Part shown: positions 6,119-55,775 of the stretch, one piece after another
Position numbering within the stretch: position 1 is the stretch's first letter
Layout: each line of letters starts with the position of its first letter
NCBI RefSeq assembly: GCF_003945545.1
Contig: NZ_CP029617.1
Span: 5,255,001 to 5,319,000 of the forward strand
Reading direction: 5' to 3'
Source: Streptomyces sp. WAC 01529
Lineage (GTDB): Bacteria; Actinomycetota; Actinomycetes; Streptomycetales; Streptomycetaceae
DNA: 64,000 nt
Position numbers and translations under genes: made by a program
Notes under the pieces: generated by a model
Seen by the model: the letters and a program-made list of their open reading frames with translations, nothing else
What the model was told of the DNA's origin: nothing
Database searches by the model: none

Positions 6119-9100
6119 ATGGCCCTCGAGAAGCACGACGTCGTCGGCGCCCTGCGCAAGTCGCTGAAGGAAACCGAGCGTCTGCGGCGGCAGAACCAGC
6201 AGTTGCTCGACCAGGCGGGTGAGCCGCTGGCGATCGTGGGCATGAGCTGCCGATTCCCGGGAGGCATCGCCTCGCCGGAGGACCTGTGGTCCCTGGTCGC
6301 CGAAGGGCGCATGGGCATCTCGGAGTTCCCGGGCGACCGCGGCTGGGACCTGGACAACCTCTACGACCCGGACCCCGACCACGCGGGTACCGCCTACACG
6401 CGCCACGGCGGATTCCTCGACGGCATGGCCGACTTCGACGCGGAGTTCTTCGGGATCAGCCCGCGCGAGGCGCTCGCCATGGACCCCCAGCAGCGACTGC
6501 TCCTCGAAGGGGCGTGGGAAGCCTTCGAGGACGCGGGGATCAACCCCACCGGCCTCAAGGGCAGCGACACCGGCGTCTTCTGCGGGCTCATGTTCTCCGA
6601 CTACCAGTTCGTCGCGAGCCAGAGCGAACAGCGCCCGGACATCGAGGGCTACCTCTCCATCGCGTCGTCGCCCAGCGTGGCGTCGGGCCGCATCAGCTAC
6701 ACCCTCGGTCTGGAGGGCCCCGCGGTCACCGTGGACACGGTGTGCTCCTCCTCCCTCGTGGCGATCGACCTGGCGGGCAAGTCCCTGCGCTCCAAGGAGT
6801 GTTCGCTCGCCCTGGTCGGCGGAGCGACGACGCTGGCGCGGCCCAGCGCCTTCGTGGAGTTCAGTCGGCAGCGCGCGCTGTCGCCGGACGGCCGCTGCAA
6901 GGCGTACGCGGCGGCGGCGGACGGTGTCGGATGGGCCGAGGGCATGGGCCTGCTCGTGCTGGAGCGGCTCTCCGACGCGAAGCGCAACGGCCGCAGGATC
7001 CTCGGCCTGATCCGGGGCTCCGCCGTCAACCAGGACGGTGCGAGCAACGGTCTGACCGCGCCGAACGGCCCCTCCCAGGAGCGGGTGATCCGCCAGGCGC
7101 TCGCCAACTCCGCGCTCTCCCCGGCCGATGTGGACGCCGTGGAGGGCCACGGCACGGGCACGCCGCTCGGCGACCCGATCGAGGCGGAGGCGCTCCTTGC
7201 GACGTACGGCCAGAACCGCGAGAACGGCCCGCTGTGGCTCGGCTCGATCAAGTCGAACTTCGGTCACACCCAGGCGGCCGCCGGTGTCGCCGGTGTGATC
7301 AAGATGGTGATGGCGATGCGGCACGAGACGCTGCCGCCGACCCTGCACGTGGACGCGCCGTCCCCGCACGTGGACTGGGAGTCCGGCGAGGTCGCCCTGC
7401 TGACCGAGGCCAAGCGGTGGCCCGCCGGTGAGCGCGCCCGCCGCGCCGGTGTCTCGTCCTTCGGCGTGAGCGGTACGAACGCCCACGTCATCCTGGAAGA
7501 GGCACCGCGCGAGAGCGCGGCCCCGGCGGACGAGGCGCACGAGCCGAGCGGCGCGCACCCGGCCGCCCTCCGCGGGCCCGTGCTCGTGCCGCTCTCCGCG
7601 CGCGGCGAGGCGTCCCTGCGCGAGCAGGCCGACCGCCTGCGGGCCCACATGATCGCCCGGCCCGAACTGGACCACCTGGACATCGGGTTCTCCCAGGCGA
7701 CCGCACGCGCCCACCTCGAACGCCGTGCCGTCATCCTCGCCCCCGACCGGGGCGCCCTGCTGACCGGCCTGAGCGACCTCAGCTCGGCCGAGCCCGCGGC
7801 GAACGTGGCGGAGGGCCAGGTCACCGGATCGGTCGTCAAGCCGGTGTTCGTCTTTCCGGGGCAGGGTGCCCAGTGGCTGGGCATGGCGGTCGATCTCCTT
7901 GATTCCTCCCCGGTGTTCGCGGCGGAGATCGGTAAGTGTGCTGAGGCGCTGGCGGAGTTCGTGGACTGGGACCTGGTGGATGTCCTGCGGAGCGCCCCGG
8001 GGGCGCCGACGCTGGACCGCGTCGATGTGGTGCAGCCTGCTCTGTTCGCGGTGATGGTGAGTCTGGCGGCGCTGTGGCGTTCGTATGGTGTGGAGCCGTC
8101 GGCGGTGGTGGGGCATTCGCAGGGTGAGATCGCTGCCGCGTATGTGGCGGGTGGGTTGTCGTTGCGGGATGCGGCGCGGGTTGTGGCGGTGCGCAGTGTG
8201 CTGGTGCGGGATCGTCTTGCCGGGCTTGGCGGGATGATGTCGGTGGCGTTGCCGGTGGAGCGGGTCGAGGAGTTGATCGCTCCGTTCGCGGGTCGTGTGT
8301 CGGTGGCGGCGGTGAATGGTCCGGCTGCTGTGGTGGTGGCGGGTGAGCCGGGTGCGTTGGATGAGGTGTTGGCGCGTTGTGAGGGTGAGGGTGTTCGTGC
8401 GCGTCGGGTGAAGGTGGACTATGCCTCGCATTCGGCGCAGGTGGAGGCCATCGAGGGGGAGTTGCTGGCGGCGTTGGCGCCGGTGAGGCCGGTGAGTGGG
8501 CGGGTGCCGTTCTACTCCACGGTCACGGGTGGCTTTGTCGACACCGCGGGCATGGATGCCGGGTACTGGTACACCAACCTGCGCAGCCCCGTCGGGTTCG
8601 AACCCGCCATCCGCGCCCTCACCGAGAAGGGCATGGGCTGCTTCGTCGAGGTCTCCCCGCACCCCGTACTGACGATGGCGGTCTCGGAGACCCTTGAGGC
8701 CGCGCACGGCACCGACCAGCGCGTGGGCGTCGTCGGATCCCTGCGGCGCGACGAAGGCGGTCTCGGCCGCTTCCTGCTCTCGCTCGGCGAGGCGCACACC
8801 GTCGGCGTCAAGGTCGACTGGGACGCCGTCTACGCGGGCGCCGGGGCCAAGCGCGTGGACCTGCCCACGTACGCCTTCCAGCGCGAGCGGTTCTGGCTGA
8901 CGCCCTCGCTGCGCGGCGGTGACCTCACCGCGGCGGGCCTGGAGCGGACTCGGCACCCGATCCTGGCCGCGGCCGTACAGGTCGGCGACCGCGACGAGTG
9001 GGTCTTCACCGGCCGCATCTCCACCGACACCCAGCCCTGGGTACGCGACCACGTCGTACTCGGCGCGGTCGTCGTGCCCGGCGCCGCGCTCGTCGAACTC

Positions 9101-12100
9101 GTCCTCGCCGCCGCCCGGCACATCGGCTGCGACCTCCTCGACGAACTGATCCTGGAGGCCCCGCTCACCCTCGACGAGGACAGCGCCCGGCACCTCAAGG
9201 TCACCGTCGGCCCGCCCGACGAGGACGGCCGCCGCGAGATCGTCGTCCACTCCCTCTCCGAGACCGGCACCGACCCCCAGGCCGGGGCCGGGACCGGACA
9301 GGACGAGGCCCGGCAGGTCGTCCGGCACGCCCGAGGCCGCCTGGCGCCCGAGGCGGAGCCCCTCACGCCGTTCCCCGCCCACTGGCCGCCGGTCGCGGGC
9401 ACCGAGACCTCCGTCGACGCCCTGTACGAGCGCCTCGCCGACATCGGGCTCGACTACGGCCCCCTCTTCCAGGGCGCGCAGACGGTGTGGCGCAGCGGCT
9501 CCGAGATATACGCCGAGGTGGCCCTGCCCGAGGGCACCGCCGTCGACGGATTCGCCGTCCACCCGGCGCTGTTCGACTCCGCGCTGCACGCCACCATGGT
9601 GGACAAGGAGCCCGGCACCGCACCCGACCTGCCCTTCTCCTGGTCCGGGGTCCGGTGCGGCAGCGCGACGCCCGCCGTGGCGCGGGTGCGCATCGCCCCC
9701 GCGGGCGAGTCCGCCTTCCGCATCGACGTCGTCGACGAGAACGGCGACCTCGTCGTCGCCGTCGACAGCCTCGCCGTACGCCCCGTGGACCCTGCCCGGT
9801 TCGCGGCCGCGGGCGGCGGCCAGAACACCCTGTTCCAGCTGGAGTGGACGCCGGTCACCGGAACGCCGGGGCAGGCCCGCATCGCGGTCATCGGCGACCT
9901 GGACGCGCCGGGCGAGCGCTACGCCGACCTGTCCGCCCTGGAGACCGCGCGCGCCGAAGGGGCCCTGGACGTCGACCTGGTCCTCGCCGCGATCGAGACC
10001 CCGGCCGACGAGGACCCCGCCCGCGCCGCGAGCGCGGTCGCCGAGAGCACTCTCGCCCTGGCCCAGCGGTGGCTGGCCAGCGAGTGGCTGGGCGAGGCCC
10101 GCCTGGTCGTGGTGACCCGCAACGCGGTCGCCGCCGCCGCCGACTCCGTCGACCTCGCGCAGGCACCCGCCTGGGGCCTGCTCCGCAGCGCCCAGACCGA
10201 GCACCCGGGCCGCTTCGTCCTGGTCGACACGGACGGTGGAGCCCAGCCCGACTGGACGTCCCTGACCGGCCTGGACGAGCCGCAGCTCGCGGTGCGCGGC
10301 GGAGCGCTCCTCGCGCCCCGCCTGGCCCGCGCGACCGCGGGTCCTTCCGGCGACGCGTGGCGCCTGTCGAGCACCCGCAAGGGCTCCCTGGAGGACCTCG
10401 CCATCGTCCCCTCGGACGGTGCCCGCGCGCTGGGCGTCGGCGAGGTCCGCGTCGCCGTGCGCGCCGCGGGGCTCAACTTCCGCGACGTGCTGATCGCCCT
10501 CGGCATGTACCCGGGTGACGCGCCGCTGGGCAGCGAGGCGGCCGGTGTCGTCATCGAGGTCGGCTCCGCCGTGACCGACCTCAAGCCCGGCGACCGGGTG
10601 TTCGGCCTGGTGATGGACGCCTTCGGCCCCGTCGCCGTCGCCGACCGCAAGACCGTCGCACGCATGCCGGAGCAGCTCACGTTCGCCGAGGCGGCCGCGA
10701 TCCCCGTCGTCTACCTGACCGCCTACTACGGCCTGGTCGACCTCGCCGACCTCAAGGCGGGCGAGAAACTGCTCGTGCACGCGGCCGCCGGAGGCGTCGG
10801 CATGGCCGCCGTGCAACTCGCCGAGCACTTCGGCGCGGAGATCTTCGCCACGGCGAGCCCGGCCAAGTGGGACGCCGTGCGCGCGCTCGGCGTGCCCGCC
10901 GAGCGCATCGCCTCCTCCCGCGACCTCGGGTTCCGCGACGCCCTGCACGAGGCCACCGGCAAGACCGGCGTGGACGTCGTGCTGAACTCCCTGGCCGGTG
11001 AGTTCGTCGACGCCTCGTTCGAACTGCTGCCGCGCGGCGGACGCTTCATCGAGATGGGCAAGACCGACATCCGCGACCCGGAGGCCGTCGCCCGCCAGCG
11101 CGAGGGGGTGCGCTACCGCTCGTACGACCTGTTGGAGGCGGGCCCGGACCGCATCCAGGAGATGCTGGTCGAGATAGCCGGCCTGTTCGAGCGCGGCACC
11201 CTGACCCCGTCACCGATCCGCGCCTGGGACGTACGCCGGGGCGCGGAGGCCTTCCGCTACCTGCGCGAGGGCCGCAACGTCGGCAAGGTCGTGCTGACCG
11301 TGCCCGCGCCGCTGGACCCCGAGCGCACCGTACTGATCACCGGCGGCACCGGCGGCCTCGGCGCCCTGTTCGCCAAGCACCTCGTCAACCGGCACGGCGT
11401 ACGGCACCTGCTCTTGGTCAGCCGGCGCGGCCCCGCCGCCGACGGCGCCGCCGAACTGGTCGCCGAACTGGAGGCGCTCGGCGCACAGGCCCGGGTCGCC
11501 GCCTGCGACGTGGCCGACCGGGAGCAGGTCGCCACCCTGCTCGACTCCGTCGAACGCCCGCTCACCGCCGTCATCCACACGGCCGGCGTGCTCGCCGACA
11601 GCGTCATCGAGTCGCTCTCTCCCGAGCAGATACGACACGTCATGCGGCCCAAGCTGGACGCCGCGTGGCACCTGCACGAGCTGACCTCCCGCATGGACCT
11701 GTCGGCGTTCGTGCTGTTCTCCTCCGCCGCGGGCCTGCTCGGCAACGCGGGCCAGGCCAACTATGCCGCCGCCAACTCCGCGGTCGACGCGCTCGCCGCG
11801 CTGCGCCGGGCGGCGGGCCTGCCCACCCTCTCCCTGGCGTGGGGCCTGTGGTCCGACTCCACGGGCATGACCGGCGAGCTGGACGAGGCGGACCTCGCCC
11901 GCATGGAGCGCACCGGCATCGGCGCGATCTCCAGCGGCCTCGGCCTGGAACTGTTCGACCAGGCGCTGAACTCCGAAGCCGCCCTGCTCGCCCCGGTCCG
12001 CCTCGACCTCGGCGCACTGCGCGAGCAGGCCAGGTCCGGCATGCTGCCCGCCCTGCTGCGCGGCCTGGTGCGCACCCCCGCGCGCCGCGCCGACAACGCC

Positions 12101-12643
12101 CGGTCGCTGGAGCGGCTGCTCACCGGTGTGGCCGAGGCCGACCGCGAGCAGGTCGTCCTCGACCTGGTGCGCAACCAGGTCGCGTCCATCCTCGGCCACG
12201 CTTCCGCGGACGCCGTCGACGCCGAGCGCGCCTTCAAGGACCTGGGCTTCGACTCCCTGGCCGCAGTCGAGTTGCGCAACCGGCTCAGCCAGGTCGCCGG
12301 GATGCGGCTGCCCGCGACGCTGGTGTTCGACCATCCCACCCCGGTCGAGGTCGCCCGGATGATCCTCGCCGAGGTCGGCGGAACGGCCGCGGGGCCCGGC
12401 CCCTCGCCCCTCGAAGGGGAGCTGCAACGCCTTGAGGCGCTCCTGATCGCCGTGGCGGGCGACGCGCAACAGCTGGGCGGTGCGGAATCCCGTATGCGTT
12501 CGCTCAGCAACCGCCTGCTCACGCTGCTGAGCGCGACGGACACCGACCAGGACGACACCGAAGACAACCTCGAAGAATCCCTCGACTTCGTCTCCAACAG
12601 CGAGATGTTCGACATGATCGACAAGGAGCTCGGATCCGCATGA
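6119..12643 (+). CDS. Modular type I PKS, one fully reducing module (predicted module 2)
   Basis: This 2174-residue protein has KS-AT-DH-ER-KR-ACP. ATG at 6119 follows GGTGGGG, and the protein then opens with a coiled-coil docking helix ([16 protein letters not shown]). The upstream in-frame ATG at 5993 lies in the terminator/promoter region. KS (about 36-460) has DTVCSSS (Val where Ala is usual) and HGTGT. AT (574-890) has GHSQGE and YASH, predicting methylmalonyl-CoA. DH (940-1230) has [10 protein letters not shown] and [12 protein letters not shown] (1415-1725) has the NADPH loop [13 protein letters not shown] (1735-1970) has TGGTGGLG and the catalytic YAAAN. ACP (2005-2080) has GFDSL. The acidic tail ends [12 protein letters not shown]. 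It would add a methyl-branched, fully saturated unit. Its stop overlaps the next start (ATGA). Confidence 0.95.
7960..8600 (+). repeat. AT segment near-identical to 35880-36550
   Basis: The methylmalonyl AT core of this module is almost base-for-base the same as that of module 7. Its codons (TTG, CGT, GTG-rich, fewer C-ending) differ from the flanking C-ending codons. This suggests recent gene conversion or duplication of an AT cassette. Confidence 0.8.
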
Positions 12644-15600
12644 CCGGGAAGACTGAGGACGGCCGGGCCGGATTGACGAGCGACGAGCAGAAGCTCCGTC
12701 AGTACCTGATGCGCGTGACCGGCGAACTGCGCACCGCCAACCGCCGGGTGCGCGAGCTGGAGCAGCGCGACGTCGAGCCGATCGCGATCGTCGGCATGAG
12801 CTGCCGGTACCCGGGCGGCGCCAACTCGCCCGAGGAGCTGTGGGAGCTGGTCGCGGCGGGCCGCGACGGCATGGGCCCGTTCCCGACCGACCGGGGCTGG
12901 GACCTGGAGGGGCTCTACGACCCGGACCCGGAGCAGCCCGGCACCGCGTACGCGACCGAGGGCGGCTTCATCGACACCGTCACCTCCTTCGACGCCGACT
13001 TCTTCGGGATCAGCCCGCGCGAGGCGACCGCCATGGACCCGACCCAGCGGCTGACGCTGGAGACGGCCTGGGAGGCCTTCGAGGACGCGGGCATCGACCC
13101 GACGACCCTGCGCGGCAGCGACACCGGCGTGTACGCAGGGACGGTCTCCTCCGACTACGGCCCGTCGACACTGCCCGAGCTGGAAGGGTTCCGGGTGACC
13201 GGCACCCAGAGCAGCGTGATGTCGGGCCGAGTCGCCTACAGCCTGGGTCTGGAGGGCCCGGCGGTCACCATCGACACCGCCTGCTCCGCGTCCCTCGTCG
13301 CCCTGCACCTGGCGGCGAACGCGCTGCGGTCCGGCGAGTGCTCGCTGGCGCTGGCCGGTGGCGTCACCGTGCTCGCGGGCCCCTTCCTCTTCGTCGAGTT
13401 CAGCCGCCAGCGGGGCCTGGCCCGCGACGGCCGGTGCAAGGCGTACTCGGCGTCGGCGGACGGCACCGGCTTCTCCGACGGCGTCGGCATGGTGGTCCTG
13501 GAGCGCCTGTCCGACGCGAAGCGCAACGGCCGCAGGATCCTCGGCCTGATCCGTGGCTCCGCCGTCAACCAGGACGGCGCGAGCAACGGCCTGACCGCGC
13601 CGAGCGGCCCGGCACAGGAGAGGGTGATCCGGCAGGCGCTGGAGAGCGCCGGGCTGAGTCCCCTTGAGGTGGACGCGGTCGAGGGCCACGGCACGGGTAC
13701 GAAGCTTGGCGACCCGATCGAGGCGCAGGCGCTGCTTGCCACGTATGGCCAGGAGCGGGACGGCGATCCGCTGTGGCTGGGCTCCATCAAGTCGAACATC
13801 GGTCATACGTCGGCTGCGGCGGGTGTGGCTGGTGTGATCAAGATGGTGATGGCGATGCGGCACGGTGTGCTGCCGCAGACGCTGCACGCGGACGAGCAGT
13901 CACCGCACGTGAACTGGGAGTCGGGCCGCGTCGAGCTGCTGACCGAGGCGCGGGAGTGGAGGGGCGGGGACCGTCCGCGTCGGGCGGGTGTGTCGTCGTT
14001 CGGCGTGAGCGGGACGAACGCGCACGTGATCCTGGAGGAGGCGCCGGCCGCCGAGCCGGCCGAGGCCGAGCCTGTCGAGGCGCCCCGGCCCGCGGGCCCG
14101 GTGCCGGTGGTGTTGTCCGGGCGGACGGATGCGGCGCTGCGGGCGCAGGTGGAGCGGTTGCGTGAGCGGGTGTCCGCTGATGCGGGTGCCTCGGTCGCGG
14201 ATGTTGCTCTCTCGTCGGTGACGTCGAGGGCGTTGCTGGATCGCCGGGCTGTGGTGGTTGCCTCGGATCGTGCTGAGTTGCTGGCGCGGTTGGGTGAGGT
14301 GTCGGCGGAGGCTGGCGTCTCGGGCAAGTCGGCGTTCTTGTTTACGGGGCAGGGGTCTCAGCGGGCCGGGATGGGCCTGGAGCTGGCTTCAGGGTTCCCC
14401 GTTTTCGAGCAGGCGTTGAGTGAGGTGTGTGCGGAGGCTGATCCGAGGTTGGGTCGGTCGTTGCGGGAGCTGCTGGCGGCTGAGGGTGACGTGCTGGACT
14501 CGACGGAGTTCACGCAGGTCGCGTTGTTCGCTGTAGAGGTCGCCCTGTTCCGGCTCGTGGAGTCGCTGGGGGTTCGGGCGGACTTCCTGATCGGTCACTC
14601 GGTCGGCGAGATCGCTGCCGCGCATGTATCAGGGGTTCTCTCCCTTGCCGACGCCTGCGAACTGGCGGTTGCTCGTGGGCGGTTGATGGGTGCGTTGCCT
14701 GCGGGTGGGGCGATGGTCGCGGTGCAGGCCGAGGAGGCTGAGGTCGCGGAGTCGCTGGCCGGGTTCGAGGGGCGTCTCGATATCGCTGCGGTGAATGGGC
14801 CGCGTGCGGTCGTGGTTTCCGGTGACGCGGACGCGGTGGAGGAGTGGCTGCTGCTGTGGGAGGGGCGTAAGACGACCCGGCTTCGGGTTTCGCACGCCTT
14901 CCATTCGGCGCGGATGGAGCCGATGCTGGCCGAGTTCCGTGCGGTTGCGGAGGGGCTGACGTTCGCGGAGCCTCGTATCCCGATCGTCTCGAACGTCACC
15001 GGTGAGTTGGTCACCGTCTTCGATGCTGAGTACTGGGTGAAGCACGTACGCCAGGCGGTGCGCTTCGCTGATGGCATCCACACCCTGTGGGAGTCGGGCG
15101 TCCGCCGCTTCCTGGAGCTGGGCCCCGACGCGGTCTTGTCCGCGATGGCCCGCCAGTGCGTGGAAGACTCCGAGGCCGCCTTCATCCCCGCGCTGCGGGC
15201 CAAGCGCGGCGAGCGCGAGACCTTCGCCGCCTTCGTCGGCCGCGCCCACACGGCAGGCATACGGGTGGACTGGGACGCCTTCTACACCGGTACGGGCGCT
15301 CAGCGCGTCGAGCTTCCCACGTACGCCTTCCAGCGTGAGCGTTTCTGGCTGACGCCCGGCACCGGTGCCGGGGATGTCGCGGCCGCCGGGCTCACCGCCG
15401 TCGACCATCCGCTCCTGGCGGCCGCCGTCCAGATCGGCGACCGCGACGAGTGGATCCTGACCGGGCTCGTCTCGGCCGAGACGCAGCCCTGGGTGGCGGA
15501 GCACCTGTTGCTCGGCACCATGGTCGTGCCCGGCACCGGGCTTGTGGAGCTGGCCCTCACGGCCGGACGCCACGTCGGCAGCCCCGTACTCGACGAGCTG

Positions 15601-18600
15601 GTCCTCGAATCGCCGCTGCTCATTCAGGACGGCGTCACCCGCCAGCTCCAGATCACCGTCGGGGCGGCGGAGCCGGACGGCCGACGCGAGCTCGCCGTCT
15701 ACTCACGGCCCGAGCACGCCACCGGGGAGACCGAGAGCACCTGCCACGGCCGGGGCACCCTCGGCCCCGACAGCGCGCCCGCTGCGGCCTGGTCGGAGCA
15801 GTGGCCGCCGCGGGACGCCGAACAGGTGCCCGTCGACGACCTCTACGGCCGCCTCGCCGACCTCGGCTACGACTACGGCCCCCTCTTCCACGGCGTCGAG
15901 GCCATGTGGCGCGACGGCGACGAGACGTACGCCGAGGTGACCCTGCCCGAGGGGCACGAGGGCTTCGGCATCCACCCCGCGCTCTTCGACTCCGCGCTGC
16001 AGAGCGGCGTGGTGCTGCTCACCGGGGAGGGTGCGGCGGCGCACCTCATGCCGTTCAGCTGGAGCGGGGTACGGCTCGACCGCGCCGGTGTCTCCCGGCT
16101 GCGGGTCCGCTCGACCATGACCGGTGACACCTCGCTGCGGCTGGACGCCGTCGACGAGGACGGGAACCCGGTGGTGTCCGTGGGTTCCCTCGTGGTGCGC
16201 CCCGTGGAGCAGGAGCGCATCGACGGCGCGCGCGGCGACGCGCGGCAGTCCCTGTACGCGGTGGACTGGACGCCGATCGAGACCGGTACGGGTACGGCCG
16301 TCGACGCGCGGGACGCGGATGTCGTACGAATCGGCGCGGGGGAGACCTACCCGGACCTGGACGCACTGGAGCAGTCACTCGCCGGGGGTGAACCGGCGCC
16401 ACGAGCGGTGCTCGCCGCCGTTCCCACCACCGGTGGGTCCGCCCCCGCCTCGGTGCACGCCACGGCCGCCCAGGCACTCGCGCTGGCGCGGCGCTGGCTG
16501 GCCGCCGGTGAGGGGCTCGCCGAGTCCCGGCTGGTGATCACGACCCGAGGCGCGGTCGCCGTGGACGGCGAGGGCGCTGATGCCTCTGATGCCGCCCAGG
16601 CGGCGGTGTGGGGTCTGCTGCGCAGTGCGCAGACCGAGCATCCGGGGCGGTTCCTCCTGGTCGACCTCGACGACGACGATGTCGTCGAAGGGCTGCACTG
16701 GGGCGGTCTGACGGAACTCGACGAGCCGCAACTCGCCGTACGAGGCGGCCGTGTCCTGGCGCCCCGGCTGGCCCGGGCGGACGCCGGGCAGGCGGTGACC
16801 GAGTTCGACGCGGACGGGACGGTGCTGGTCACGGGTGGTACGGGTGGCCTGGGTGCGGTGTTCGCGCGGCATTTGGCTTCCGTGCATGGTGTCCGTCATT
16901 TGCTGCTGTTGAGCAGGCGTGGTCTGGAGGCTGAGGGCGCGGCCGAGTTGGTGGCGGAGCTGGCGGGGCTGGGGTGCCAGGCCCAGGTTGCCGCGTGTGA
17001 CGTATCCGATCGGGAGCAGTTGGCTGCGGCGCTGGCTTTGGCGGAGCGGCCGTTGACGGGTGTGGTGCATGCGGCTGGTGTGCTGGATGACGGTGTCATC
17101 GAGTCGTTGTCGGCCGAGCAGGTCGAGCGGGTGATGCGGCCGAAGGTGGATGCGGCTTGGCATCTGCATGAGCTGACGGCGGGGGCGGAGCTTTCGGCGT
17201 TCGTGCTGTTCTCGTCGGTGGCCGCTTTGATCGGCAGCCCTGGGCAGGGAAATTACGCGGCGGCGAACGCGGCGTTGGATGCGCTGGCCGCCTCCCGTCG
17301 TGCTGCGGGACTGCCCGCCACCTCCCTCGCCTGGGGGCTGTGGGGCGACGCCGGCGGTATGGCGGACCAGCTCGCCGAGGCCGATCTCGCCCGCCTGGAG
17401 CGCACCGGTGTGGGCGCGCTGTCCAAGGAGCGCGGACTCGAACTGTTCGACCTGGCGCTCGGCGCGGACCGTGCCCTCCTGGCGCCCGTACAGCTCGACC
17501 CGGCCGCGCTGCGCGCCCAGGCCAGGGCCGGTCTGCTGCCCGCGCTGCTGCGCGGTCTGGCTCCCGCCCCCGCCCGGCGCGCGGAGACCGGCGGTTCGCT
17601 CGCCCAGCGCCTGGCGGGCACCACGGAGGCCGACCGGGAACGGATCGTCCTGGACGCGGTGCGGGAGCAGGTCGCAGCGGTACTCGGTCACGCCTCCGCG
17701 GCGGCGATCGACACCGAACGCGCCTTCAAGGACCTCGGGTTCGACTCGCTCAGCGCGGTCGAGCTGCGCAACCGGCTCACCCAGAACACGGGCGTACGGC
17801 TGCCCGCCACCCTCGTCTTCGACCACCCCACCCCGGACGCCGTCGCGAAGCTGCTGCTCTCCGAGATCGGTGGCGCGGTGGCAGCGCCGAGGAAGCCCGT
17901 CGCCCGTGCGAAGCGGGGCGAGCCGGACGAGCCCCTCGCGATCGTCGGCATGAGCTGCCGCTACCCCGGCGGGGTGACCTCCCCGGAGGAGTTGTGGAAG
18001 CTGGTGGCCGCCGGCCGTGACGCGGTGGGAGGTCTGCCCACCGACCGTGGCTGGGACCCGAACATCTACGACCCCGACCCGGACAAGCCCGGGAAGATCA
18101 ACACTCGGGGTGGCGCCTTCCTGGAGCGGATCGGGGAGTTCGACGCCGAGTTCTTCGGCATCAGCCCGCGTGAGGCCGTGGCCATGGACCCGCAGCAGCG
18201 GCTGCTGCTAGAGGCGTCGTGGGAGGCCTTCGAGGACGCGGGCATCGACCCGACGACACTGCGGGGCAGCGACACCGGCGTGTTCGCCGGTGTGGTGACC
18301 ACCGACTACGGCGGCATGGCCTCCGCCGAGCTGGAGGGCTACCGCCTGACCGGCACCACGACGAGCGTCGTGTCCGGCCGTATCGCGTACACGCTGGGCC
18401 TTGAGGGCCCCGCGCTCTCCGTGGACACGGCCTGCTCGTCCTCCGCCGTCGCCCTGCACCTGGCCTCCCAGGCGCTGCGGTCCGGCGAGTGTTCGCTGGC
18501 GCTGGTCGGCGGTGTGACCCTGCTGGCGGGCCCGTACCTCCTCACCGAGTTCAGCCGCCAGCGGGCCGTGTCGCCGGACGGCCGCTGCAAGGCCTACTCG

Positions 18601-23295: not shown

Positions 23296-23352
23296 CAAGG
23301 GGCGGGCGACGCGTGACAACGGGCGGGGAAAGCGTGACAAGGGGCGGGGAAA
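23290..23352 (+). repeat. Three tandem 21-bp repeats at a PKS gene junction
   Basis: The unit GCGTGACAAGGGGCGGGGAAA occurs three times (23290-23310, 23311-23331, 23332-23352) with a few base changes, ending in the A of the ATG at 23352. Each unit carries an in-frame GTGA and a purine-rich ribosome-site-like run. The first GTGA overlaps the stop codon of the upstream PKS gene. Confidence 0.85.
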
Positions 23353-45312: not shown

Positions 45313-45368
45313 CCGCCGGCAACCGCAGCGGCAACGAGACAGAACCAGACAGAAGGAAGCAACAGAAA

Positions 45369-46802
45369 ATGGATCTCTCCAGTACGGCACACGGCGCCGC
45401 GGGTACGTCCGAAGGCAAGTGCCCCGTCGACCACTCCGCCGCCGCCCCGCGCGAGGTCATTCCCGCCTCCCGGCTGCCCGTGGTCGGCATGGCCCGGATG
45501 CGGCAGGCGCTGAGCATCTGGTCGCGTCCGGAGCCGTTCCTGCGCAAGTGCCGCGCCGAGTACGGCAGTCGGTTCCGCGTGACGATCGTCCCCGGCGCCC
45601 AGCTCTTCGTGATCTCCGCGCCGGAGGACATCAAGGAGATGTTCCTCGCGCCCAGGGACGTCCTGCACACCGGTTCCAGCAACACGTCCATCGAGAAGTG
45701 GACCGGGCAGAACGGCCTCGCCTGGCTGGACGAGGCGCAGCACACCGCGCGGCGGCGCAGCGTCATGCCGAGCTTCCGGGGCGAGGCGCTCAAGCGCGTC
45801 GAACGCGAGGTCATCCGGCTGGCCGACGAGGAGGTCGGTTCCTGGCCCCGCGACCGGTCCGTGTCGGTCCACCCGTTCGCGCACCGCTACACCACCAGGG
45901 TCATCCTGGAGGTCCTCTTCGGAGAGCACCGCCCCTCCAGTGAGAACGAGATGTTCCGGGAGGTGATGAAGATGCTGGAATTCAACTCCCGCCCGGCGAC
46001 GATGCAGCCCTTCCACATGCTGCCGGCCTGGAAGATGAAGCGGATGCGGCTGTTCCGGCCCAACGGCGTCAACGACTTCCTCACCCGCCGCGACCGCGTC
46101 CACCGGATGCTGGACGAGGCCATCGAGGAGCGCGCGCGCTCCGGCGCGGCCGGTGACGACCTGCTCGGCGTGATGCTGAACATCGTCGACGCCGACGGCT
46201 CCTCGCCGAGCCGCACCGAGATACGCGACGAGATGATGACCCAGTTCCTCGCGGGCACGGAGACCACCGCGTCGGCCATCTGCTGGGCGCTCGAGTTCCT
46301 CACCCGCCACCCCCGGGTGGTCGAGCGGCTGCGCGCGGAGATCGCGGAGGGCAAGGAGGACACGTATCTGACGGCGGTGGTCACCGAGGTGCTGCGGCTC
46401 GGTCCGCCGATCCCGCTGATCGTCCCCCGCGAGGTGATGAAGACGGTCGAGATCGGCGGCGTGCGCTACGAGCCCGGTGCCCGCCTGTGGGCCAGCGCCT
46501 ATCTGCTCAACCGGGACGAGAACATCTACCCGGAGCCCGACGAGTTCAAGCCGGAGCGCTTCCTCGGCGTCAAGCCCGCCTCGCACACCTGGATCCCCTA
46601 CGGGGGCGGCCACACCCGGTGCCTCGGCGACCGGATCGCGCTCATGGAGCTGAAGGCCACGCTCACCGCGCTCCTGACCAACTGCGACATCGAACGCGTC
46701 AACGCCGAGCCCGAGCTGGCGCGCCGCCGCACGGTCGTCCACATCCCGAAGGACGGCGCCCGGATGATCTTCCGGCCGCGCAGGGTGAAGGCCTCGGTCT
46801 GA
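45369..46802 (+). CDS. Cytochrome P450, eukaryotic-like bacterial clade
   Basis: This 477-residue haem monooxygenase probably oxidises the polyketide after release. ATG at 45369 is chosen for the GAAGGAAG nine bases upstream. An in-frame ATG at 45309 overlapping the PKS stop (ATGA) is the alternative and would add 20 polar residues. Visible motifs are the I-helix AGTETT (about 295), the K-helix EVLR (about 340), FKPERF (about 397) and the haem loop YGGGHTRCLG with Cys about 418. The haem loop has Tyr where Phe is usual. The length and the PERF-type motif are unlike the roughly 400-residue P450s common in Streptomyces clusters. No ferredoxin or ferredoxin reductase gene is in the window, so redox partners must come from elsewhere. 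Confidence 0.93.
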   Translation: MDLSSTAHGAAGTSEGKCPVDHSAAAPREVIPASRLPVVGMARMRQALSIWSRPEPFLRKCRAEYGSRFRVTIVPGAQLFVISAPEDIKEMFLAPRDVLHTGSSNTSIEKWTGQNGLAWLDEAQHTARRRSVMPSFRGEALKRVEREVIRLADEEVGSWPRDRSVSVHPFAHRYTTRVILEVLFGEHRPSSENEMFREVMKMLEFNSRPATMQPFHMLPAWKMKRMRLFRPNGVNDFLTRRDRVHRMLDEAIEERARSGAAGDDLLGVMLNIVDADGSSPSRTEIRDEMMTQFLAGTETTASAICWALEFLTRHPRVVERLRAEIAEGKEDTYLTAVVTEVLRLGPPIPLIVPREVMKTVEIGGVRYEPGARLWASAYLLNRDENIYPEPDEFKPERFLGVKPASHTWIPYGGGHTRCLGDRIALMELKATLTALLTNCDIERVNAEPELARRRTVVHIPKDGARMIFRPRRVKASV

Positions 46803-46854: not shown

Positions 46855-47439
46855 ATGAGGCTGCCGAACACCGCGTTCACCGAACACCCCTGGCGGATCC
46901 ACGAGTTCATCGAGGACTTCGAGGTCGAGGACGTCTGGTACCTGGACACCCCGGGAGGCCCCGACGACCTGGCCGTCCTGGTACGGCAGTCCAGCGGCGA
47001 CGGCACCGCCGCCGAGAAGTCGTTCATGTACAGGCTGCTCTTCGCGATCCGCTGGAAGCTCGGCGTCCTCTTCAAGTGGGACGGGGAGGAGAACGGCGTC
47101 GGTCCCGGCAACCCCTCGCTGCGGGACCGGCTCCCCGGCGACCTGCGTGAGGGACCGCGCGGCCCGGATCTGCGGACGGTGCCGATGAAGTCGGTCTATC
47201 AGGCCTCCGACGAGTGGGTGACCGAGGTCGTCAACAAGACCGTGCACGCGGTGATGCACATCGGCTGGGTGGCCGACGGGGAGGGCGGGTACCACGGCCA
47301 GATGGCCGTTCTCGTCAAGAAGAAGGGCCTGCTGGGGAAGGTGTACATGCCCCTGATCCTGCCCTTCCGGCGCGTCTTCGTGACGCCGAACCTGGTCAAG
47401 TCGATCGGCACCGCCTGGCGGGCGCGGCCGGCCGGATAG
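46855..47439 (+). CDS. DUF2867 family protein
   Basis: This 194-residue protein opens [15 protein letters not shown] and continues with [16 protein letters not shown], the pattern I associate with DUF2867 proteins in actinobacteria. They are sometimes found next to polyketide tailoring genes, but their biochemical role is not established. There is no signal peptide, and a single hydrophobic stretch near the C-terminus (VYMPLILPF) is not a clear membrane segment. Conserved-looking charged or aromatic pairs ([21 protein letters not shown]) suggest a ligand-binding fold. ATG at 46855 follows GGAG. It sits 52 bases after the P450 and is likely co-transcribed, so it may assist a tailoring or cyclisation step (inference). 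Confidence 0.7.
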
Positions 47440-47561: not shown

Positions 47562-50500
47562 ATGGATGTGAACGAGCGCGTGCAAGGGCCCGTCGGGGCG
47601 GGCCGGGATGCCGTCGCCGTCGTCGGGATGTCATGCCGGGTCCCGGGCGCCGACGGCATCCGCTCCTTCTGGAAGCTGCTGAGGGACGGTGAGCACGCGC
47701 TGGCGGACGCGCCGGCCGACCGGTGGCCCACGGACATCGAGGAACTGGCGCGCCACCCGCGAGGAGGCTTCGTCGACGGCGTCGCCGACTTCGACGCGGG
47801 GTTCTTCGGCATCTCCCCGCGGGAGGCCGCCGTGATGGACCCGCGCCAGCGCATGGTCCTCGAACTGGGCTGGACGGCCCTGGAGGACGCCTGCCTGCCG
47901 CCGGAGAGCCTGCGCGGCAGCGCCACCGCCGTCTTCCTCGGCGCCACCGGCGACGACTACGCCTCCCTGGTGCACCGGCAAGGCGGCGACGCCCTCTCCC
48001 ACCACTCCATCGCCGGACTGAGCCGGGGCCTGATCGCCAACCGGCTCTCGCACCAACTGGGCCTGCACGGGCCGAGCCTGACCCTGGACACCGCCCAGTC
48101 GTCCTCCCTCGTCGCGGTGCACATGGCCTGCGAGAGCCTGCGCTCGGGAACCGCGGACCTGGCGCTCGCGGGCGGGGTCCACCTGAACCTCGTACCGGAG
48201 AGCACGATCGCCTTCGCCCGCTCCGGGGCACTCTCGCCCGACTGCCGCAGCCACACCTTCGACGCCCGCGCCAACGGTTTCGTCCGCGGTGAGGGCGCGG
48301 GTGTGGTCGTACTCAAGCGGCTCTCCGACGCGATCGCCGACGGTGACTCCGTGTACTGCGTACTGCTCGGCGGCGCCGTCAACCACGACGGCCCCGGCGC
48401 GCTGACCGTCCCCAGCGCCCAGGCCCAGAGCGCCCTGCTGAGCGAGGCCTGCCGCGCCGCCGGGGTGAGCCCCGCGCAGGTGCGGTACGTCGAACTGCAC
48501 GGCACGGGCACGCGCGCGGGCGACCCGGTCGAGGCGAGCGCCCTGGCCGAGGTCTTCGGCGCGGACCGCGACGCCGGACAGCCGCTCCTGGTCGGCTCGG
48601 TGAAGACCAACATCGGCCATCTCGACGCGGCCGCGGGCGTCCTCGGCCTCATCAAGGTCGGCCTGTCGATGCGGCACGGCCTGCTGCCCGCCAGCCTCAA
48701 CTACGAGACGCCGCATCCGGACATCCCCCTGGAGCAGTGGAAGCTGCGGGTCAACGCCGCCGCCGCGCCGTGGCCCGAGGGCGCCCGGCTGGCCGGCGTC
48801 AGCTCCTTCGGCATCGGCGGCACCAACTGCCACCTCGTCGTCGCCGCTCCGGAGCCCATGGAACCCGGGCCGGAACCCCAGCCGGACGCGAACGGCGTCA
48901 GCGGCACGCGCGTCCCGGTGACGCTCTCCGCGCGGACCCTTCCGGCGCTGCGGGCCCAGGCCCGCCAACTGCACGACTGGGTGCGCGAGGACACCGGCCT
49001 GAGCCCGCTGGACGTCGGCCACTCCACGGCGACCACCCGGTCCTCGCTGAAGGGCCGGGGCGTCGTGCTCGCCGCCGACCGCGACGAACTGCTCGAAGGG
49101 CTCGCCGCGCTCGCCGACGGCACGCCGTCCGCCCGGGTCGTCACCGGCACCGCCACCGACGCCGGCGGCGTGGTCTGGGTGTTCTCCGGGCAGGGCGCGC
49201 ACTGGGTCGGCATGGGCAAGGGCCTGTGGGACACGGACGAGGTGTTCGCGGCCCGCATGGACGAGTGCGAGCGGCTGCTCGAGCAGTACGCGGGCTGGTC
49301 GCTGCGGGAGGTGCTCGGTGATGAGACCGCCCTGAAGCGGATGGACGTCGTACAGCCCGCGCTGTTCGCCGTGATGGTCTCGCTCGCCGAGGTGTGGCGC
49401 GCGGCGGGCGTGCGGCCCGACGCGGTCATCGGCCACTCCCAGGGCGAGATAGCCGCCGCGACCGCGGCGGGCATCCTCTCCCTTGCCGACGGCGTACGAC
49501 TCATCGTCGCCCGCGCGCAGATCATCACCGAGAAGCTGTCGGGACGGGGCCTGATGGCCGTCCTGGACCTGCCGGCCGACCAGGTCGACTACGAGGGCGT
49601 CTCGGTCGGGGCGGTCAACTCGCCCGGAACCGTGGTCATCTCCGGCGACCCCGACGGCGTCCGCGCGGCCGTTGCCGACTGCCGGGCCAGGGGCATCCGG
49701 GCCCGCGTCGTCCCGGTCGACTACGCCTCCCACTGCTACCACGTGGAATCGATCAGGGACGACGTGCTCCGCGGGGTCGCGGGCGCCGAGACCACCGACA
49801 CCGGCGTGGCGTTCTACTCCACCGTCGAAGCGGGCCGCGTCGACCCGGCGACCCTGGACGCCGAGTACTGGTACCGCAACCTGCGCGAGCCCGTCCGCTT
49901 CGCCGAGACCGTCGAGGCGCTGGCCGCCGCGGGGCACGCCGTGTTCGTGGAGGTCAGCCCGCACCCGGTGCTCGCCATGCACGTCGCCGCCACGGCCGGC
50001 TCCGCCGTCGTGCAGGCCACGCTGCGCCGCGACGAGGTGGAGACGGACCGGCTGCTCCTCTCCATGTCCGAGCTGTACAGCAGGGGCGTGGACCTCGACT
50101 GGGGGGACCGGTTCACCGGCGCCCGCCGCGTGCCGCTGCCCACGTACGCCTTCCAGCGCGAGAGCTACTGGATCGACGGCGCGGCCGCCGGAGCACTCAC
50201 GGCGCGCCCGGCCCCCGCCGCCGCGCCCGGCACGACCCCCGCCGCCACCATGTCCGCCACCCCGTCCGCCGCCCTGTCCGAGCAGGAGCTGTGGACGCTG
50301 GTGCGCGGCGAGGCGGCGGTGCTGCTCGGGCACGCCGACGCCACACGCATCGGCGCGGACAACACCTTCAAGGAGCTGGGCTTCGACTCGGTGACGGTGG
50401 TGCAGCTGCGCGACCGGCTCAACGCCGCGACCGGCCTCCAGACGCCCTCCTCCCTCGCCTACGACCACCCGACCCCCGCCGCTCTCGTGCGGCACCTGTC

Positions 50501-53500
50501 CGGACTGCTCACCGGCCCCGGCGAGAACCGGACCGACGCGGCGGCCGCCCCGGCCGCCGCCACCGCCCGCCTCGACGACGAGCCGATCGCGATCGTCGGC
50601 ATGAGCTGCCGGCTGCCCGGCGGCGTCACCACGCCCGAGGAGCTGTGGCGCCTTGTCGCCGACGGCGTCGACGCGATCACCGGCTTCCCCGAGGACCGGG
50701 GCTGGCACGTCGACGGGGACACGGACTTCATCCCGGCCGGCGGCTTCCTCGACGGCGCCGCCGACTTCGACGCGGGCTTCTTCCGGATCAGCCCGCGCGA
50801 GGCCCTCGCCATGGACCCGCAGCAGCGGCTCGCCCTGGAATCCGTGTGGGAGGCGCTGGAGCACGCGGGCCAGGACCCGGCCGCGCTGCGCCGCACCCCC
50901 ACCGCGGTGTTCATGGGCGCCATGGCCCAGGACTACCTGCCCCGGCTGCAGGACGTGTCGGGCAACCTCGCTGGCCACGCGCTGACCGGCGGCTCCGGCA
51001 GCGTCGTGTCCGGCCGGATCGCCTACTCCCTGGGTCTTGAGGGAGCGGCCGTCACCGTCGACACCGCCTGCTCCTCCTCCCTGGTCGCCGTGCACCTGGC
51101 CGCCCAGTCGCTGCGGTCGGGGGAGAGTTCCCTGGCCCTCGCGGGCGGGGTGACGGTGATGTCGACCCCCGGCATGTTCGTGGAGTTCGCCCGGCAGGGC
51201 GGCCTCGCGGCCGACGGCCGGTGCAAGGCGTTCTCCGACGATGCCGACGGCACCGGCTGGTCCGAGGGCGTCGGCGTGCTCGTACTGGAACGGCTCTCCG
51301 ACGCCCGCCGCAACGGCCGCCGCGTCCTTGCCGTGCTGCGCGGCAGCGCGATCAACCAGGACGGCGAGAGCAACGGCCTCACCGCCCCCAACGGCCCTTC
51401 CCAGGAGCGGGTGATCCGCCAGGCCCTCGCCTCGGCCGGTCTCTCCCCCGACGGGGTCGACGCGGTGGAGGCGCACGGCACCGGCACCAGCCTCGGCGAC
51501 CCGATCGAGGCGCAGTCACTGCTGTCCGTCTACGGCCGCGACCGCGAGGAGCCACTGTGGCTCGGATCGCTGAAGTCCAACGTCGGGCACACCCAGGCCG
51601 CCGCGGGCGTCGCCGGCGTGATCAAGATGATCATGGCGATGCGGGCGGGCGTACTGCCGAGGACCCTCCACGCCGAGCAACCCTCCAGCCGGGTCGACTG
51701 GTCCTCGGGCGCCGTGCGGCTGCTTGCCGAGGAGCGCGAGTGGCCGCGGGCCGACCGCCCCTGGCGCGCCGGTGTCTCCTCCTTCGGCATCAGTGGCACC
51801 AACGCCCACGTGATCATCGAGCAGGGCGACCCCGTCGGCGCGGAGTCCGCCGGGCGTCCCGCCGGGCCGCCCCGGGGCGAGACCGTGTGGCCGGTGTCCG
51901 CGCACAGCGCCAAGGCGCTGGCCGGGCAGGCCCGCAAGATGGCCGCCGCGCTCACCGCCGACCCCGCCGCCGCCCCGGCCGACGTGGCCCTCTCCCTGGT
52001 CACCCGGCGCTCGGCCCTCGACCACCGCGCCGTGATCATCGGGGCGGACCGCGAGGAACTCCTCGCCGGTCTCGGCGCCCTCGCCGAAGGGCGCCGCGAT
52101 TCCGGTGTGGTCACCGGTCACGCGTCCGCGCCGCCCACCGTGGGCGTCCTCTTCTCCGGGCAGGGCAGCCAGCGCCTCGGCATGAGCCGGGGGCTGATCG
52201 AGGCCTTCCCCGTCTTCGCCGAGGCCTGGCGCGAGGTCTGCGCGGAGCTCGACCCCCTGCTGGAACACCCCGTCCGCATCGACGAGGTGGTCACGGCCGA
52301 ACCCGGTTCCGGGACGGCCGGACTGCTCGACGAGACGTCGATGACGCAGCCCGCCCTGTTCGCCTTCGAGGTCGCCGCCTACCGGCTCCTGACCTCCCTC
52401 GGGGTCGAACCCGAGGTGCTCGTCGGGCACTCCATCGGCGAACTGGCCGCCGCGCACGTGGCGGGCGTGTTCTCGCTCGCCGACGCCGCCCGCATGGTCG
52501 CCGCCCGCGGCCGACTGATGGGCGCGCTGCCGCGCGGCGGCGCCATGGTGGCCGTACAGGCGAGCGAGGAGGAGGTACGGGCCGCCCTGGCCGGATACGA
52601 GGAGACGGTCGCCGTCGCCGCCGTGAACGGCCCCGCGTCCGTCGTGATCTCCGGTGCGGAGGAAGCCGCCACCGAGGTCGCGGAGGCCCTGGCGGCCGAC
52701 GGCCGCAAGACGACCCGGCTGCGCGTCTCGCACGCCTTCCACTCGCCGCTGATGGACCCCATGCTCGACGAGTTCCGGCGCGTCGCCGAGTCGGTCACCT
52801 ACGCGCCCCCGCGGATCGCGGTCGTGTCGAACGTCTCCGGCGCCGTCGCCGAACCCGGCGAGCTGGAGCAGCCCGGCTACTGGGTGCGCCACGTACGCGA
52901 AGCCGTGCGCTTCGCCGACGGGGTCGCCGCCGCCGTGAAGGCGGGGGCCGAGGCACTGGTCGAGGTCGGCCCCGACGGCGTCCTGTGCGGAATGGCCGCC
53001 GACGTCCTCGCCGACGCGGCCGCCGTCGCCACACCCCTGGCCCGCAAGGGCCGCCCCGAGGCCCGCTCGGCCGCGGAGGCGCTGGCCCGGCTCCACGTCC
53101 TGGGCGTCCCGGTCGACTGGCGGAGCTACCTGGACGCCGTCGGCGCCGCGGGCCTCCCCGTCGACCTGCCCACCTACGCCTTCGACCACCAGCGCTACTG
53201 GGCCGACCCGGCAGGCCCGGCCCAGCCGCACGGCGATGTCGCGAGCGCCGGCCTGGAAGCGGTCGGGCACCCCTTCCTGGCCGCCGCGACCGAGCTTGCC
53301 GTCGGCGGACAGGTGGCGTTCAGCGGACGGATCGACCTCGCCGCCGAACCCTGGCTCGGCGACCACGCCATCTTCGGGAACGCCGTGTTCCCCGGCGCCG
53401 CCCTGGTCGACCTGGTGCTGCGCGCGATCGAGGACACCGACTGCCGCGCCGTCGAGGAACTGACCCTCCACGCACCGCTCACCCTGACCGAGGGCGCCGT

Positions 53501-55775
53501 GCGGACGCAGGTCGTCATCGGGGAGGCCGAGCCCTCCGGGAGGCGCTCCGTCGGCGTGTACTCGCGTCCGGCCTCGGCCGCCTCCGGCGCCTGGACCGCC
53601 CACGCCACCGGCCACGTCGTCCCGAGGCCGCCCGCCCGCGCCCCCATGGCGGACGTATGGCCCCCGCAGGGCGCCGAGCCGGTGGACGTGGCCGCCCTCT
53701 ACCCGGAGCTCGCCGAGCGCGGTTACGGCTACGGCCCGGCCTTCCGGGGCCTGCGCGCGCTGTGGCGGCTCGGCGACGAGGTCTACGGCGAGGTCGAGCT
53801 GCCCGCGAAGGTGCCGCACGCCACGTCCGGATTCGCCGTACACCCGGCCCTCTTGGACGCCGCGCTCCACCCGGTGCTCACGCTGATGCTGACCGACGAC
53901 CCCGACCAGGTCGTGCTGCCCTACTCCTGGTCCGCCGTCGCCCGCCACGCGCGCCCCGAAGGACGGCTGCGCGTCCGGGCCACCCGGATCAGCGCGACCG
54001 AGGTGTCCCTGGCGGTCACCGGCGCCGACGGCACGCCCGTACTGAGCGTGGACTCCCTCGCCCTGATGCCCGCCACGGCCGCCCAGCTCTCCCGGGGCTC
54101 CCTGGCCGACGCCCTGTTCGGCGTGGGCTGGACGCCCGCCGAGCAGGACCCGGAGCGTGCCGCGGGCACCGCCGACCTCGCACACGTCAGGATCGACGTC
54201 GACGGGGCGACCGACATGCCGGCGGCGGCGCGGGCGAGCGCCCGTGCGGCCCTCGCCCTGGTGCAGCGGCGGCTTGCCGACCACCACGACCGCCCGCTCG
54301 CCCTGGTCACCGAGAACGCGGTGGCGGCCCTCCCCGGCGAGACGCCCGACCCGGCGCTCGCCCCGGTGTGGGGCCTGGTGCGCTCGGCGCAGATCGAACA
54401 CGGCGACCAGTTCGTGCTCGTGGACACCGACGGCAGCGAGGAGTCGCTGCGCGCGCTCGAGCACCTGGACCCGGCCGTGCCCGAACTCGCGCTCCGCCAG
54501 GGCCGGGCCTACGTGCCGCGCCTGGTGCCCGCGCCCGCCACGGCCACCGCGCCGCGCGCGTGGGACCCGGACGGAACGGTCCTGCTGACCGGCGCGACCG
54601 GCGGTCTCGGCACCCTGCTCGCCCGGCACCTCGTCGTCGAACACGGGGTGCGCAACCTCCTGCTGCTCAGCCGCTCGGGCGCGGCCGGGGTGGCCGCCGA
54701 ACTGACCGGCCTCGGCGCCCGGGTCACGGAAGCGGCCTGCGACGTCTCCGACGCCGACGCGCTGGCCGGGCAGCTGGCGCGGATCCCCGAGGACGCGCCG
54801 CTCACCGCGGTGGTGCACATGGCGGGCGTGCTCGACGACGCCGCCGTGGAGCTGATGGCGCCCGAGCGCATCGACCGGGTCTTCGCACCCAAGGCCGACG
54901 CCGCGTGGCACCTGCACGAACTCACCAAGGGCATGGACCTGTCGGCCTTCGTCCTGTACTCGTCCGTGGTGGGCTCGGTCGGCAACGCGGGCCAGGCGAA
55001 CTACGCCGCGGCCAACGCCTTCCTCAACGCCCTCGCCGAGCACCGGGCCGAGGCGGGGCTGCCCGCGCTCTCGCTGGCCTGGGGCCCGTGGGAGACCGGC
55101 ATGGCGAGCACGCTCGGCGAGGCCGACCTGGCCCGCTTCCGGCGCCAGGGCATGGTGCCCCTGACGGCGGAGAAGGGCATGGCCCTCTTCGACGCGGCAC
55201 TCGGCTCGACGGACGCGCTGCGCCTCCCCGTCCAGATCGACAGGGGCACCCTGGCCCATGACGCGCCCGCCCTGGTGCGCACCCTGGCCACGCCCGAGCC
55301 CGCGTACGCTCCCGCGCCGCCGGAGGAGTCCCTCCCGGCCGAGGAGGACGGGCAGTCCCCGATGGTGCGCAAGCTCGCCGCACTCTCGCCCGAGCAGCGC
55401 AGCGAGGAACTGGTGAACCTGCTGCTCGAGACCGCCTCCGTGGTGCTCGGCTACTCCTCCGCCGACGACATCGACGCGGAGATGTCGTTCCAGGAGATCG
55501 GCTTCGACTCCCTCAGCGGCGTCGAGTTCCGCAACCAGGTCAAGAAGGACACGGGGGTCCACGTCCCGGCCACGGTGATCTACAACTACCCGACGCCCGC
55601 CGCCCTGGCGGAGCGCCTGCGGGAGCTGCTGTTCCCCGAGCCGGGCGCGCAGGACGAGACCGTGGCCGCCGACGACCTCGCCGGGGCTCGCGACGGCGAT
55701 CTCGACGAGGACCTCGACGGCGACCTCGACGACCTCGACATCGAAGCCCTCGTGCAGCGGGCGATATCCCAGTGA
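47562..55775 (+). CDS. Modular type I PKS, KSQ loading module and extension module 1
   Basis: This 2737-residue protein starts the chain although it is the last PKS gene. ATG at 47562 follows GGAG; no docking coiled coil precedes the first KS, as expected for a loading protein. Loading module: KS-like domain 17-430 with DTAQSSS (Gln179 replaces the active Cys, a decarboxylating KSQ), AT 536-863 with GHSQGE and YASH (methylmalonyl, hence a propionyl starter), ACP 906-980. Module 1: KS 1006-1420 (DTACSSS), AT 1526-1863 (GHSIGE, HAFH, malonyl), DH 1896-2170 ([20 protein letters not shown]), KR 2336-2560 ([17 protein letters not shown]), ACP 2610-2685 (GFDSL). The very acidic tail ([12 protein letters not shown]) ends [12 protein letters not shown], resembling the tail of the 23352 protein. 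It would deliver an enoyl chain to the 6119 protein. Confidence 0.95.

Follow-up and report, generated by a model that had tools for sequence, protein, structure and literature searches.

In its single-contig genome of 8.27 Mb, Streptomyces sp. WAC 01529 carries five modular polyketide synthase (PKS) genes within a 64-kb stretch of DNA (64,000 nucleotides, hereafter the window), together with genes for a cytochrome P450, a DUF2867 protein and an acyl dehydrogenase (Table 1). We describe here the order in which this assembly line is predicted to act, its relation to the lines of close relatives, and its product, which is probably a shortened gombapyrone.

Pfam and motif scans of each module gave one loading module, eight extension modules (M1 to M8) and one thioesterase (TE). 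The active-site cysteine was kept in the ketosynthase (KS) domain of all eight extension modules, with M2 reading DTVCSSS. The acyltransferase (AT) of the loading module has a YASH motif and is read as specific for methylmalonyl, which upon decarboxylation by the KSQ domain is read as giving a propionyl starter. An LDD motif was found in the ketoreductase (KR) domains of M1 and M3 to M6, and by established KR typing the alkenes of these modules are read as trans. In M7 and M8, the KRs lacked the catalytic Tyr (that of M7 also lacked the nucleotide-binding glycines) and the Asp of the second dehydratase (DH) motif was replaced by Glu, while the TE after M8 retained its serine. These dead KRs, the YASH and FASH ATs and the TE serine make up an end of two terminal unreduced methylmalonyl modules followed by a TE, from which a dimethyl pyrone is predicted.

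An earlier reading, made from the letters of the window alone (the sequence-only reading), had given the starts and ends of the five genes and placed the KSQ loading module in the gene starting at 47562 and the TE in that starting at 34084. Open reading frames (ORFs), Pfam matches and motifs bore this out. They also agreed with its propionyl-type starter (KSQ plus the YASH loading AT), one saturated methyl-branched unit (M2, YASH AT with DH, enoylreductase (ER) and KR), four alkene modules (M3 to M6, HAFH AT with DH and KR) and two unreduced methylated keto units (M7 and M8). The pyrone closure that it predicted stands as the simplest release only, given the pair of dead-KR methylmalonyl modules and the TE.

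Table 1. Features of the locus, with positions in the window. ACP, acyl carrier protein; X and Y, docking classes of the protein ends.
Feature	Position	Strand	Domains, evidence and remarks
MFS efflux transporter, possible cluster member	3451..5022	+	Pfam MFS_1; NCBIfam efflux_EmrB over cut-off
Stand-alone type II thioesterase	5090..5875	+	Pfam Thioesterase 2.8e-50; GNSMG serine motif
PKS1 (M2)	6119..12643	+	KS-AT(methylmalonyl, YASH)-DH-ER-KR-ACP; head Y, tail X
PKS2 (M3 and M4)	12640..23295	+	each KS-AT(malonyl, HAFH)-DH-KR-ACP; head X, tail X
PKS3 (M5 and M6)	23352..34028	+	each KS-AT(malonyl, HAFH)-DH-KR-ACP; head X, tail Y; M6 mosaic-looking
PKS4 (M7 and M8)	34084..45312	+	AT YASH in M7, FASH in M8; dead KR and degenerate DH in both, then TE; head Y
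Cytochrome P450, candidate aromatase acting on the released polyene	45297..46802	+	Pfam p450 1.4e-62; start uncertain, about 45369 by relatives
DUF2867 protein, proposed polyene isomerase or P450 helper	46855..47439	+	possible helix-grip (Bet v 1/START-like) fold
PKS5 (loading module and M1)	47562..55775	+	KSQ(DTAQSSS)-AT(methylmalonyl, YASH)-ACP, then KS-AT(malonyl, HAFH)-DH-KR-ACP; tail Y
TcsD-type acyl dehydrogenase, proposed gamma,delta-desaturase of M1 pentenoyl-ACP	55772..56977	+	overlaps PKS5 stop; PDB 6u1v match
ATP-grasp protein and SARP-type regulator	56987..61321	+	outside the cluster; begins the neighbouring gene set

The docking ends of the PKS proteins, here named by the starts of their genes, fell into two classes when their similarity was scored as z against 2000 shuffles per pair. 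The heads of the 6119 and 34084 proteins shared 18 of 31 residues (z 10.9, 0/2000 shuffles) and those of the 12640 and 23352 proteins 11 of 31 (z 8.1, 0/2000). The tails paired 6119 with 12640 (z 4.3, 0/2000) and 23352 with 47562 (z 4.0, 3/2000). Seven of the eight cross-class comparisons gave an absolute z of at most 1.9; the eighth, between the heads of 34084 and 23352, gave 2.5 (32/2000). No docking helix was seen at the N-terminus of PKS5. If like pairs with like, a single gene order out of 120 is permitted in the window, 47562 > 6119 > 12640 > 23352 > 34084. The opposite code, joining an X tail to a Y head, would also suit the window with the middle order reversed. It was excluded by relatives with one extra PKS gene, in which it fitted none of 24 orders while like-with-like fitted two of 24; one relative, G325b, was omitted from this argument, the N-terminal head of its first PKS gene being unreadable. 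Thus the pairings of the sequence-only reading lie well above shuffles, and the biosynthetic order that it had drawn from them is upheld.

At the starter end, the dehydrogenase that overlaps PKS5 leads to a different structure. It matched PDB 6u1v with 245 of 382 residues identical (64%, E 5.9e-159); the entry is labelled simply as an acyl-CoA dehydrogenase domain protein, and we take it to be TcsD of the FK506 pathway. Residue E379, presumably the catalytic Glu of the family, was aligned and invariant across seven sequences. A knock-out and tests with recombinant enzyme are reported to show that HliR, of the haliangicin pathway, dehydrogenates a diketide starter at the gamma,delta position and so forms a terminal alkene (PMC4768178). 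The clade of acyl dehydrogenases that includes TcsD and HliR, described in that source, desaturates short side chains or diketides at their ends, and the window enzyme is predicted to do likewise. TcsD acts in the FK506 pathway on a side-chain (extender) unit, whereas the window enzyme is coupled to the gene for the loading module and M1. With a TcsD-type enzyme in this position, a terminal 2,4-diene is predicted at the starter end rather than the one isolated alkene of the sequence-only reading, and the linear scaffold would be C22H26O3 in place of its C22H28O3. Taken alone, the PKS domains would give C22H28O3 before minor tailoring, a tetraenyl dimethyl-pyrone that is linear and has an isolated alkene. 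We consider such a product improbable, as it ignores both the dehydrogenase and the P450/DUF2867 pair, which is kept in all six orthologous clusters described below.

Homologues of the dehydrogenase (E <= 1e-70) were found in 21 of 392 genomes of the genus, the window's own counted. At 19 of 48 loci with the dehydrogenase a KSQ gene of at least 60% identity was present, and some of the other loci end at contig edges. The P450, DUF2867, KSQ and dehydrogenase genes followed one another in that order within the flank at eight of the 48 named loci, among them those of S. xantholiticus, S. coffeae, S. zagrosensis and S. albicerus.

The six closest dehydrogenase loci (G325a, G305, G069, G226, G058 and G325b) were compared with the window. 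All six kept the order TE-PKS, P450, DUF2867, KSQ-PKS, dehydrogenase, with a P450 homologue at the same position and, in four, MFS-like genes interspersed. In G325a, G305 and G069, where the dehydrogenase is 88-89% identical, we found the dead-KR pyrone end and an extra single module with an ER. In G226, G058 and G325b (81-82%), the line ends in a TE module with intact KR motifs, so acids and not pyrones are predicted (in G058 the first DH motif was unmatched by the search pattern). The order in G325b (L092-L094, L147) was propionyl, malonyl, malonyl, methylmalonyl-ER, malonyl, malonyl, malonyl, TE, much as would be expected of a line for a lorneic-type aromatic acid to which the diene-starter cassette had been added.

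For G325a and G069, the line reads propionyl, malonyl, methylmalonyl-ER, malonyl, malonyl, malonyl, methylmalonyl, malonyl-ER, methylmalonyl, methylmalonyl, TE. A further PKS gene past the dehydrogenase in G325a was taken as belonging to a neighbouring cluster and excluded; the G305 sequence has gaps (N) and broken frames. Gombapyrone E is described as a 3,5-dimethyl-4-hydroxy-pyrone joined to a 7-methylnonatetraene chain and a 2-allyl-4-methylbenzene, the earlier members being trienes (PMC6263278). Mapping gombapyrone E back to a linear chain, we infer the extender order of G325a and G069 plus one malonate. Every methyl position of the back-mapped molecule (pyrone C3 and C5, chain C9 and the ring) was matched by these two lines, and its terminal vinyl sits where the dehydrogenase would act. 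One malonate fewer, as in these lines, is what the triene gombapyrones would need.

The window line would share with the gombapyrone (gbn) skeleton, as described, the dimethyl hydroxy-pyrone end, the terminal vinyl carbon at the starter end and the methylmalonyl-ER unit at the ring position (PMC6263278). The gombapyrone pathway also includes a ring-forming P450, GbnP; it and LonP are reported to form the benzene ring of gombapyrones and lorneic acids within a linear polyene freed from type I PKSs (PMC10265476). Compared with a triene gombapyrone, the product of the window line would be shorter by two chain carbons, and would lack one methyl, in the part that links the ring to the pyrone. The full gombapyrone-type order, with three or four malonyl units, was present in G325a and G069 and not in the window. 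Because the window is without the malonyl-ER module and has a malonyl M6, with the rest of the order matching, we call it a variant and not a member of the type. The sequence-only reading could not match its scaffold to a named compound. That is now answered in part: the gombapyrone skeleton is matched by the lines of nine-module relatives, of which the window is a shortened variant.

Two other families have features in common with the window. In the lorneic cluster (Orf1-257/LonP), a methylmalonyl DH/ER/KR module is flanked by alkene modules, as M2 is by M1 and M3, and the P450 was first proposed to make the benzene ring (PMC4306953) and later called verified in this role (PMC10265476). The cluster differs in its described acetate starter and carboxylic acid end (PMC4306953); the window has KSQ loading, a YASH AT and a diketo end. 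NFAT-133/TM-123 (nft), like the product predicted for the window, combines a trialkyl benzene in mid-chain with a pyrone, and its P450 NftE1 is reported as needed for the aromatic products. It differs in using the MBL-fold hydrolase NftF1 and in two KRs speculated by its authors to give cis alkenes (PMC10265476), whereas the active KRs of the window other than that of M2 carry LDD.

The single module with an ER stood directly upstream of the TE gene in all nine close relatives that could be examined (G325a, G069, G305 and six named strains) and was absent in the window. The close relatives number 11 (G325a, G069, G305, which is L098, L097, and L099-L105), and NRRL S-118 and S. albicerus were unexaminable for this module. 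In TRM49041, the ER domain was present and the frame breaks ahead of the tail.

In comparison with the two modules of the relatives, M6 looked like a mosaic. The KS of M6 was like that of the relatives' module 6 (93-95%, vs 47-82% for their ER module, in three 40-residue segments covering residues 121-240), as was part of the DH. The AT, however, is malonyl in the window and methylmalonyl in the relatives' module 6. Over residues 441-840, it showed 81-99% to the window's own malonyl modules, 29-58% to the relatives' methylmalonyl module 6 and an intermediate 62-90% to their malonyl ER module. For the KR and ACP the sources were indistinguishable. The PKS3 tail was like that of the relatives' ER module (72-73%, vs 17-39% for module 6). 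In G325a and G069, PKS3 carries an X tail and the extra gene a Y tail, while PKS3 of the window itself carries the Y tail; the tail changed together with gene content, as the docking code requires. The simplest history would be an in-frame deletion between module 6 and the ER module, plus conversion of the AT.

Alternatively, the missing module might be an artifact, near-identical modules having collapsed in assembly, and the real cluster an ordinary nine-module one; this would fit gombapyrone and not a variant. Long near-identical stretches are indeed common to the modules. We consider a collapse very unlikely, since the longest exact repeat found was 260 bp, the mosaic M6 is diverged in places and shows a switch of tail by which the docking code remains consistent, and the genome is a single contig.

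We therefore favor, as probable from the gene content and domain order, a shortened gombapyrone-type modular PKS that makes a shorter gombapyrone. As read from the sequence, KSQ would set a propionyl starter and M1 would add malonate, leaving 2-pentenoyl-ACP. The TcsD-type enzyme is proposed to desaturate this to pentadienoyl-ACP. Again as read from the sequence, the chain would pass along the order given above, M2 adding the saturated methyl-branched unit, M3 to M6 four trans alkenes, and M7 and M8 unreduced methylmalonates, before release by the TE. Release may close a 3,5-dimethyl-4-hydroxy-2-pyrone, giving the linear C22H26O3. The P450, perhaps with help from the DUF2867 protein, would then oxidise the CH2-CH(CH3) stretch that links the terminal diene to the polyene, and six carbons could close to a methyl-substituted benzene bearing an allyl or hydroxyallyl group. 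Because a P450 aromatises part of the polyene in the matching named family, the pathway probably passes through the linear tetraene as an intermediate. A nor-gombapyrone with a formula near C22H24O3 or C22H24O4 is the likely product, rather than C22H28O3. Predicted [M+H]+ values are 337.180 for the benzenoid C22H24O3 and 353.175 for its hydroxylated form C22H24O4, against 339.196 for the linear C22H26O3 with a terminal diene and 341.211 for the C22H28O3 of the sequence-only reading. No description of the predicted nor-gombapyrone was found in the open-licence literature.

Several observations weigh against this reading. Loss of the ER module would leave the polyene conjugated to the pyrone, which alters the hydrogen count of aromatisation and makes the benzenoid form uncertain; the P450 may leave a linear compound. 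The P450 has both its heme loop (YGGGHTRCLG) and AGTETT, and this loop has Tyr where five aligned homologues have Phe. Both points would suit a pathway in which the terminal diene is made and the P450 acts otherwise than by aromatisation, as an epoxidase or hydroxylase, leaving a linear polyene pyrone of about C22H26O3 or C22H26O4. We regard this as rather unlikely, because the ring-forming segment (M1 alkene, M2 methylmalonyl-ER, M3 and M4 alkenes) is unchanged and lorneic acid is itself proposed to arise by aromatisation of a polyene that is conjugated with its carboxyl (PMC4306953). The putative identity of the P450 is drawn from its position and family context; matches were found in 10 of 396 genomes of the phylum, at no more than 39% identity outside the window, and none of them anchored it to a LonP orthologue of characterised function. 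Should the M2 ER be inactive, which the lorneic authors allow for their own methylmalonyl module (PMC4306953), the linear chain would be C22H24O3, with two hydrogens fewer, and C22H24O4 with one oxygen. The AT motif of M8 is FASH instead of YASH. Gombapyrones A-D were compared here by their published description as trienes alone (PMC6263278). Lastly, the dehydrogenase of Streptomyces sp. t39 (L104), 88% identical, had no KSQ, P450 or DUF2867 gene within its full 10-kb flanks. The t39 genome carries a TE-type PKS gene at another place.

The release step could also differ. A terminal 3,5-diketo acid, released by hydrolysis, could decarboxylate to an ethyl ketone or feed a 3(2H)-furanone of the kind seen in actinofuranone skeletons (PMC6225470) instead of an alpha-pyrone. 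The actinofuranone clusters are, however, reported with a flavin monooxygenase (PMC10897937), and none was present among 13 scanned non-PKS ORFs of the window. We rejected an actinofuranone-type product as the less likely and hold this kind of release to be highly improbable.

At E <= 1e-75, the P450 matched nine loci in eight of the 392 genomes of the genus, and a DUF2867 gene lay less than 3 kb from the P450 at all nine. Two of the nine loci (G090 and G217) showed no TcsD-type dehydrogenase, and these pairs possibly serve other aromatised polyketides. In G090 (L158/L159) there is also a KSQ PKS gene (73%), with an AT pattern read as GAGH; in G217 (P450 43%) the sole PKS match in 70 kb was on the opposite strand, about 42 kb off. 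No PDB sequence matched the DUF2867 protein at E <= 1. Its structural model (pLDDT 69.6), a sheet with a long C-terminal helix, best matched START-like and Bet v 1 proteins, all weakly (best Foldseek E 5.9e-3, Z up to 7.9), and aromatase/cyclases figured among these weak matches. The lorneic route is described as needing trans-to-cis isomerisation ahead of ring closure (PMC4306953). Given these fold matches and this need, the DUF2867 protein is a reasonable isomerase candidate. In the published lorneic gene table, neither an acyl-CoA dehydrogenase nor a DUF2867-sized gene adjoins the P450, and the lack of the second speaks against a general need for DUF2867; a 185-aa gene, its function unassigned in the source, lies at the opposite end on the other strand (PMC4306953). 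For nft, whose cis alkenes were deduced from the KRs, the cassette's P450 alone is reported to have restored two aromatic products (PMC10265476). It is a tentative and somewhat doubtful proposal that the window combines a nor-gombapyrone line, arisen by module deletion and AT change, with a new helix-grip polyene isomerase/cyclase in DUF2867, which would turn the trans alkene laid down through the LDD-carrying KR of M3 into the cis form for benzene closure.

As for the bounds of the cluster, MFS-like matches lay near the P450 in four of the six orthologous clusters, at an identity of just ~28-34%. The ATP-grasp gene was rejected as a pathway member: the ATP-grasp/SARP pair recurs in genomes without this PKS, and no match to it was found in the six orthologous clusters. 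The neighbouring set (56987-64000 onward) holds, besides this pair, a LuxR-type response regulator, two acyl-CoA dehydrogenases, a nonribosomal peptide synthetase of C-A-T-TE form and a LysX/RimK-like ATP-grasp gene. An island of lower GC content left of the window start (contig 5242179-5252201) carries a PtuA-like/PDC-M01 pair as well as genes of a type I restriction-modification set. At contig 447047-476466, the same genome has one more large region of modular PKS genes, in which several KS domains were seen.

With these results, an orphan assembly line gains a named family and expected masses. A natural PKS line may shed an entire module and switch one extender unit with its docking tails staying consistent, which is an aim of PKS engineers. 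The pairing of P450 and DUF2867 hints at an isomerase that may be the missing piece in the formation of benzene rings from linear polyenes.

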